Assembly (NCBI GenBank): GCA_947450115.1
Contig: CANFUE010000008.1
Coordinates: 1-64,000, forward strand
Direction of reading: 5' to 3'
Length of the DNA stretch: 64,000 nucleotides
Origin: Acidimicrobiaceae bacterium
GTDB taxonomy: Bacteria; Actinomycetota; Acidimicrobiia; Acidimicrobiales; Ilumatobacteraceae
Made by a program: the position numbers and the translations under genes. Positions 57,954-59,552 of the stretch are shown piece after piece. The notes below the pieces were generated by a model. It saw nothing but the letters and a program-made list of their open reading frames with translations, was not told where the DNA came from and searched no databases. The first letter of the stretch is position 1; every line of letters starts with the position of its first letter.

Positions 57954-59552
57954 TCACCCGTTGCGCTTCGCCTCTGCACGACGTTCAGATTCCAGGCGCT
58001 CTAACTCAGGTACTTCCGTCGTCATGTGGCTCATTGCTTCAGCAATAGCCTTATGGCCAGCTTGGTCGCGAATAAGAGCATGCATATCGAGGGCTACCTT
58101 GCGATATGCCGGATGTCCTTGTGGGCTTGAACGGAGCTCAAGCATGTGCATTGCTTCACGTGCATTGAATTGCATGACATAGCGAATGCGATACGCCATT
58201 GAAACGGCATACGGAGCCTGCGCAGGATACTCAGGTAGCAACAGATCATATAGATCTGCTGATTTCTCCATTACTTCATCGAAGGCTGATGTCTGTAGTG
58301 CCTCATCAACAATGTCGGGACGAACATAACCATGATTCGGAGTTAATGGTTGCCATTCAATGGTGAGCATGCGATGTCGTTGCATATCGCGAAAAGCTCC
58401 GTAGTCAGAGAGTACGTCAAAGCGATAGTCGGTGCGCTCAAAAGCGCGACCTGGACGGTGGCGCCTATTGGTGCGGTCACCAACGTAAGTACGAATGAGT
58501 CGTACTTTGTCGTCGTGGCTCATCTGTTGCACTTTTTTGAAAATTTGTGCTTCGCTTTGAGTTGTTTGGCTGTAACAGATGGCCGCCAAAAGTTTGTCTT
58601 CACCTTCAGGGTCAAAGTCACTTAAGACAACAGATTCTGCCGGCGCAACTTCTTCTTTGGCAAAGAGCTCATGCACAATCTGCTGTGTGTTGGTAGATGT
58701 GTCTGACAAATATTGCGACCAGCGACCACCGCGGTCTGGTTGATCTACTCGGCGCAAGAAACTAGGTACGACCTTGCGTAGTTCTGTGAGCATCAAATCG
58801 GCATAGAGACGGGCTTCAGGAAGTGGGTTCGATCGCATCCTGAGCAACAAGGCTTCATATGCCTGTCCACTGCCGTAGATGCCTACATTGGAGAGCGCCG
58901 AAGCTGGCAGCACCCCGCGCACGGCATCGAGCGCTTTTGCTCGTGTTGCTTGCCTATAGATGAAATCTGAGTCTTTTGGCCCTTGGGGAACAACCTTGCG
59001 CACATGCGTGGTGAGAGAGTCCACAAGACCGCTGTAGGAATCAAACATGCGGTCCATATCGCCGACGTACCTTGTTCCAAAACGGCCGGAGAGGACATCG
59101 GGGTCACGGTAGAACCTGTATCTGCCGCCAAGACGGTTGTCATAAGAGATGTAGCGCGTACTTTGCTCGAGGTAGCTCATCAAGCGACCCCATTCGAGAA
59201 TCTTCGTTAATAAGTTCGATGCTTGCTCACAAGCGAGGTGTACCCCACCTAATTGTGCTACCGAGTCATCGCCATATTCCACAAAAACTTTTTCATAAAG
59301 GTCTTCAGCACGTTCGACGCCAATTGTTGCATCGAGGGTTGCGTCGCCTTGTACGTCTAGTTCGTTTACGAATTCATCAAGAAAAAGCCTCCGCAGGCTT
59401 TTAGCGCTGCGGCTGTAACGAGCAAAAAGTGCGCCCTTCACCACTTCTGGGAGATTAACGAGAGCAAATACAGGAGAATCGAGATTGGTAAAATACCGTT
59501 TCAAGATGTCAGATTCAGCGGGAGTGAACTCCTCGGGTACATAGACCGTCAC
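57954..59552 (-). CDS. thyX: Duplicated ThyX-like FAD-dependent thymidylate synthase
   Basis: 532 residues, about twice a normal ThyX (220-250). The N-half has WGRLMSYLEQSTRY (121-134), a variant of the ThyX motif RHRxxSxxExSxR that keeps the final Arg of RHR and S-E-S-R but loses the first Arg and His. The C-half has QRHRMLTIEWQP (391-402), which keeps RHR but loses S-E-S-R. Both halves then carry a conserved tail: VLPASALSNVG in the N-half, QFNAREAMHMLELRSSPQG in the C-half. A TAACAT element lies 8 nt before the GTG start. ThyX makes dTMP with FAD and methylene-THF; activity of this form is not proven. Confidence 0.85.
   Translation of the reverse strand: MTVYVPEEFTPAESDILKRYFTNLDSPVFALVNLPEVVKGALFARYSRSAKSLRRLFLDEFVNELDVQGDATLDATIGVERAEDLYEKVFVEYGDDSVAQLGGVHLACEQASNLLTKILEWGRLMSYLEQSTRYISYDNRLGGRYRFYRDPDVLSGRFGTRYVGDMDRMFDSYSGLVDSLTTHVRKVVPQGPKDSDFIYRQATRAKALDAVRGVLPASALSNVGIYGSGQAYEALLLRMRSNPLPEARLYADLMLTELRKVVPSFLRRVDQPDRGGRWSQYLSDTSTNTQQIVHELFAKEEVAPAESVVLSDFDPEGEDKLLAAICYSQTTQSEAQIFKKVQQMSHDDKVRLIRTYVGDRTNRRHRPGRAFERTDYRFDVLSDYGAFRDMQRHRMLTIEWQPLTPNHGYVRPDIVDEALQTSAFDEVMEKSADLYDLLLPEYPAQAPYAVSMAYRIRYVMQFNAREAMHMLELRSSPQGHPAYRKVALDMHALIRDQAGHKAIAEAMSHMTTEVPELERLESERRAEAKRNG

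Follow-up and report, generated by a model that had tools for sequence, protein, structure and literature searches.

Leduc in 2004 reportedly placed the active site of ThyX, the flavin-dependent thymidylate synthase, where three monomers meet. In the Mycobacterium tuberculosis enzyme, three subunits build one active site: subunit A brings Arg95, the first Arg of the RHR triplet at 95-97, together with Arg199; subunit C brings Gln103, Ser105, Arg107, and the lid residue Tyr108; and subunit B brings S71 and R190 (PMC6514825). The ThyX tetramer has 222 symmetry (PMC3498832). Mutation of S88, R90, or Y91 strongly impairs the enzyme, in which R174 serves to activate dUMP (PMC8316439), R78 faces the flavin, and H53 is supplied by a third monomer (PMC11940539). 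A domain duplication, left uncharacterized, is mentioned for Chloroflexi ThyX by Valas and Bourne 2009 (PMC3224940).

The window analyzed here is a stretch of 64,000 nucleotides from an Acidimicrobiaceae bacterium (GenBank assembly GCA_947450115.1, contig CANFUE010000008.1, positions 1 to 64,000). An earlier note on this DNA, made from the letters alone, had placed two ThyX folds in one chain at 57954-59552. The coordinates are right, the gene lies on the minus strand (59552→57954), and profile similarity confirms the reading of a single open reading frame as two ThyX (Thy1) domains. The gene encodes 532 amino acids plus a stop codon from a GTG start, and both the start and the length are conserved among relatives. 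Pfam Thy1 (PF02511) matches the protein in two stretches (119.4 bits against a gathering cut-off of 24.8), and the search of the organism's own genome located Thy1 twice within a single open frame, at 58062-58613 and 58761-59318. The N-half comprises residues 1-300 (58653..59552, minus strand) and the C-half comprises residues 301-532 (57957..58652, minus strand). When the N-halves and the C-halves were each aligned separately and compared with canonical ThyX by hhalign, the probabilities were 99.0% and 99.1%; because each half's profile matches canonical ThyX at this level, we assign both as ThyX domains. The N-half alignment profile reached M. tuberculosis ThyX (E 9e-7) and the C-half profile reached Thermotoga maritima ThyX. 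Such a profile was needed to reach the ThyX sequences of the PDB, since a phmmer search of PDB sequences with the window protein by itself returned a sole, unrelated match (E 0.9).

Three-dimensional modeling bears on the C-half. The predicted C-half superimposed on solved ThyX structures with Z scores of 11.5-15.0 over 167-191 residues. In the AlphaFold2 model of the full chain, the N-half was poor (pLDDT mostly <50 at residues 27-135), and the N-half modeled alone gave a pTM of 0.39. Given this low confidence, the fold comparison uses the C-half model only, and the assignment of the N-half to ThyX is one of profile similarity. An assembly artefact was considered and rejected, the same open reading frame occurring as near-complete matches of at least 61% identity in 59 of 61 relatives; a decaying pseudogene was likewise rejected, there being no internal stops and strongly conserved sites.

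The complete RHR-x7-S-x-R motif is present in neither half: the N-half is without RH, and the C-half is without S-x-R-Y. The N-half motif, from W121 to Y134 (WGRLMSYLEQSTRY; 59151-59192, minus strand), keeps the equivalents of E86, S88, R90, and Y91 and has Gly in place of H79. Both motif strings of the earlier note proved exact. The C-half motif (QRHRMLTIEWQPLTP; 58338-58382, minus strand) contains R392-H393-R394, which align with R78-H79-R80 (58371..58379), and has lost the S88, R90, and Y91 positions in the segment T-I-E-W-Q-P-L-T-P (58338..58364). The division extends to other minus-strand positions. R212 (58917..58919), the equivalent of T. maritima R147, is absent from the C-half, and the stretch from R465 to R474 (58131..58160), equivalents of R165 and R174, belongs to the C-half. 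S97 (59262..59264) aligns with T. maritima T55 and M. tuberculosis S71, a third-subunit FAD contact. N-half residues A44-R45-Y46-S47-R48 (59409..59423) lie close to where canonical ThyX has its folate loop, in a region of uncertain canonical alignment. Over the whole chain, E86, S88, R90, Y91, R147, and T55 are represented in the N-half and R78, H79, R80, R165, and R174 in the C-half; H53 is found at its position in neither half of the window protein, Asp95 and Pro367 standing there instead.

We compared 67 diverse tandem proteins (19-95% identity) from actinobacteria, Bacillus/Paenibacillus plasmids, jumbo phages, and cyanophages. Fifteen of the 532 positions are invariant among them: A44, R48, S97, E129, S131, R133, R212, and P216 in the N-half and R392, H393, R394, L473, R474, R484, and R519 in the C-half. 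Eight of the fifteen are active-site residues, E129, S131, R133, and R212 corresponding to T. maritima E86, S88, R90, and R147, and R392-H393-R394 and R474 corresponding to R78-H79-R80 and R174. N-halves have Ser at the T55 position, keep Y91 in 66 of 67 cases and R80 in 59 of 67, and never keep H79, mostly having Gly there; in C-halves, the positions of S88, R90, Y91, and R147 are not conserved. Because both motifs are conserved down to ∼20% identity, the partition is not a matter of chance.

Canonical ThyX proteins (n = 26) carry all key residues at the motif, R147, R165, and R174 positions in one chain, the sole variation at these positions being Q/E at E86 and Y/F at Y91. Among 31 N-halves, E86, S88, R90, and R147 are kept in every one and H79 in none; in all 31 C-halves, R78, H79, and R174 are kept and R147 is not conserved. 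The earlier note had described the C-half as keeping RHR and losing S-E-S-R, which agrees with the full set (RHR in 67/67) and with the exact motif string. Its description of the N-half, with S-E-S-R kept and the His lost, also stands; the loss of the first Arg that it reported there is real in the window protein (W121) but is not fixed, Arg occurring at this position in 24 of 67 relatives. The partition is wider than the residues it listed, with R147 confined to the N-half and R174 invariant in the C-half.

In light of the canonical subunit roles, the partition acquires a pattern. The C-half keeps the subunit-A set of M. tuberculosis ThyX and the N-half keeps the subunit-C set. Because these two sets come from different subunits of one canonical site, the alignments support the view that the halves are specialized by subunit role, a division that the mutational record on S88, R90, Y91, R174, and R78 fits. 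The earlier note had proposed a working site built jointly by both halves, and the match of the kept sets to two subunit roles (PMC6514825) supports it. Two chains would probably pair to form a pseudo-tetramer resembling the canonical homotetramer of ThyX in shape. Each working site would then combine a C-half, holding the flavin and activating dUMP through the equivalents of RHR and R174, with an N-half, binding dUMP and closing over it through the equivalents of E86, S88, R90, Y91, and R147; a third contribution, in the role of T55/S71 and H53, probably comes from an N-half too. Given 222 symmetry and a site that needs a C-half in the A role and an N-half in the C role, a dimer of chains should have two complete sites in place of the canonical four. 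Either of two compatible chain arrangements would give the same count and would leave the other two sites without both sets. Between the two options of the earlier note, one working site or half the sites, symmetry thus points to the latter. We consider it highly probable that the two fused, specialized domains form a flavin-dependent thymidylate synthase with shared sites, two per pseudo-tetramer.

The genomic context was examined for other sources of thymidylate. The earlier note had regarded an intact thyA or thyX elsewhere in the genome, together with a failure to complement, as evidence against its reading; searches of the organism's own genome, which is 89.9% complete, detected neither a second Thy1 nor ThyA or thymidine kinase. 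The tandem ThyX is therefore the only thymidylate synthase detected in this organism, and another could be missing from an assembly of this completeness. Of the 108 good genomes of the class, 99 match Thy1. All nine without such a match (G071, G090, G097, G100, G103, G133, G137, G184, and G190) have ThyA, and ThyA was matched in only three of the 99 Thy1-bearing genomes, weakly in one of the three (Fisher p 6e-11 for exclusivity, uncorrected for shared ancestry). Both states, tandem ThyX and ThyA, occur within one family (f38), and the reduced 1-Mb genomes (g64) mostly have a single-domain ThyX instead of the tandem. Given that the division of residues between the halves recurs in about a third of sampled actinobacterial genomes and in several phages, it is very probable that neither half works without the other and that jointly they are the only thymidylate source of the cell.

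ThyA needs DHFR; ThyX chemistry does not, and a tandem enzyme of the ThyX type would not need it either. Ten of 146 genomes had DHFR: six of these have only ThyA, two have both ThyA and the tandem, and two have the tandem without ThyA; a DHFR match was absent from three ThyA genomes. We argue that DHFR follows ThyA and not the tandem, the pattern expected of a working flavin-dependent synthase. In genome G067, the ThyA match falls in two pieces ∼1 kb apart (contig C39, 1968-3886), perhaps an interrupted gene; this genome also has the tandem ThyX, and a DHFR nearby. In genome G162, thyA adjoins folA (contig C8, 48396-49669) and the tandem is retained, possibly an exchange in progress.

Other explanations must be weighed against this evidence, beginning with the half that fills the third role. 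The third-subunit set is split in the window protein, with S97 in the N-half and R465 in the C-half, and H53 is replaced by Asp95 and Pro367 in actinobacterial forms, so that this assignment is uncertain; the same replacement suggests that the folate-stacking histidine has been substituted or is dispensable. The composite site could be as proposed with its third contribution drawn instead from a second C-half, through R465 and R369, the C-halves pairing around two flavins. Such an arrangement, which we rate as possible though on the unlikely side, fits the retention of R465 in 59 of 67 C-halves, where the N-half has Gln, and the presence of R369 at the T55 position of the C-half in 60 of 67. 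It fits less well with the invariance of S97 in N-halves and with the most distant members, since the H53 position is His in eight of 67 N-halves, distant phage and Bacillus/plasmid forms among these, and not in their C-halves. Since S97 is invariant and most distant members retain H53 in the N-half, the alignments favor the N-half as the probable source of the third contribution.

The fate of the incomplete sites and the role of the enzyme as a whole invite further alternatives. Complementary loss may have converted a four-site homotetramer into a two-site hetero-site enzyme whose two silenced sites have found a new use, such as an allosteric or reductant-docking surface, an idea that we think unlikely. 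We find it distinctly unlikely that the degenerate sites, rather than being empty relics, now serve for regulation or for NADPH/folate docking: the H79 position of the N-half is mostly Gly, the H53 position is Asp in actinobacterial forms, and C-half R484 and R519 are invariant though outside the known catalytic set, all of which would suit new docking surfaces, but the S88-Y91 segment of the C-half is variable, which hints that this region has no conserved use. The protein might also resemble ThyX yet act on another substrate or in another role, as do PolB, a UMP/dUMP methylase, and Corynebacterium glutamicum ThyX, which is not required for thymidylate; thymidylate would then be made some other way. 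Such paralogues are among the solved structures (4p5b and 3ge9), and the window protein misses the NCBIfam TIGR02170 thyX equivalog cut-off (41 against 87.9 bits). We nevertheless regard this as very unlikely, since the own-genome search for known synthases and thymidine kinase found nothing else and ThyA takes the place of the tandem in part of family f38. Most improbable of all is that one half is a mere structural scaffold and the other has complete sites by itself. The N-half does keep R80 in 59 of 67 proteins, and 54 of the 67 have Arg where R174 would align; however, S88/R90 and H79 occur together in neither half, and the set kept by each half is invariant. A synthase with shared sites, built by both halves, accordingly remains our preferred reading.

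The tandem open reading frame is widespread. Of 109 good genomes in the class, 92 carry it, and the N-half profile matches 122 of 396 sampled genomes of the phylum; discounting five weak matches to single-domain ThyX, the tandem is present in ∼117 of 396, or about a third of the actinobacterial genomes sampled. No free-standing N-half was found in the 396 genomes save for fragments at contig ends, the open reading frame being otherwise long enough for both halves. Named carriers include Ilumatobacter, Euzebya, Miltoncostaea, and Parabacteroides distasonis, and distant tandem proteins (19-25% identity) are encoded by Bacillus and Paenibacillus plasmids, Tunturiibacter and Vibrio jumbo phages, and Microcystis and Microcoleus phages. 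The tandem genes of a Vibrio mediterranei phage (L220, 2366-3751) and a Microcoleus phage (L226, 1902-3413) are annotated as hypothetical. Viral scans with the window protein, Tunturi_5, and the Vibrio phage proteins returned no loci, and a scan with the family alignment returned one.

A tree of the halves and canonical ThyX gathers the 31 N-halves in a single group (100/98) and is compatible with a single group for the C-halves (65/62). Several pairs (for example, L220/L227, L225/L226, and L203/L208) recur in both subtrees, indicating that the halves have mostly travelled together. With several very long branches, the tree is compatible with an origin of the tandem by one duplication or by fusion of two ThyX lineages. 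Other rearranged ThyX genes were seen. Five genomes (G241, G230, G202, G263, and G342) of families f64 and f79, in which tandem ThyX is otherwise the form present, have ThyX-like open reading frames in circularly permuted order (L246-L250), with an NTHR(A/V)FSRNS(A/S)SSRAIP block first and an HWSP(L/M)EHVATP block last; the one scanned, L247, matches PHROG 85, and descent through a tandem intermediate is conceivable. In genome G497, a 563-residue ThyX open reading frame (L245 and L252) is split by a ∼300-residue insert with intein-like ends directly after RHRVGW of the catalytic motif.

The tandem ThyX offers a clean natural division of labor within a multisubunit active site, in bacteria as well as phages. 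Because its two residue sets can be mutated separately in one gene, the contribution of each subunit to the ThyX active site can be tested directly. For many actinobacteria, thymidylate synthesis would rest on an enzyme that scores poorly against family models and is built unlike canonical ThyX. Among known proteins, the top structural match of the C-half is Thermus thermophilus Thy1 (6j61; chain of 270 residues), a ThyX with extra C-terminal sequence that we take not to be a second Thy1 domain. The thymidylate synthase of cyanophage Ma-LMM01 (PHROG 36506) is a 491-residue tandem with the same partition (QERSTRY in the N-half and NRHR in the C-half), but it is only ∼25% identical to the window protein and is annotated simply as a thymidylate synthase. 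Double-length ThyX was already noted in Chloroflexi in 2009, in passages that make no mention of active-site residues or complementary loss (PMC3224940). The open-licence literature yielded no description of a complementary active-site division in tandem, fused, or heterotetrameric ThyX, and an earlier mention is possible. Canonical ThyX (T. maritima TM0449 and the M. tuberculosis enzyme) shares the PF02511 superfamily with the tandem and, when the halves are summed, nearly the same catalytic residues, H53 excepted. Unlike it, the tandem has two diverged domains per chain, each without part of the motif, and would be expected to have two sites per pseudo-tetramer rather than four.
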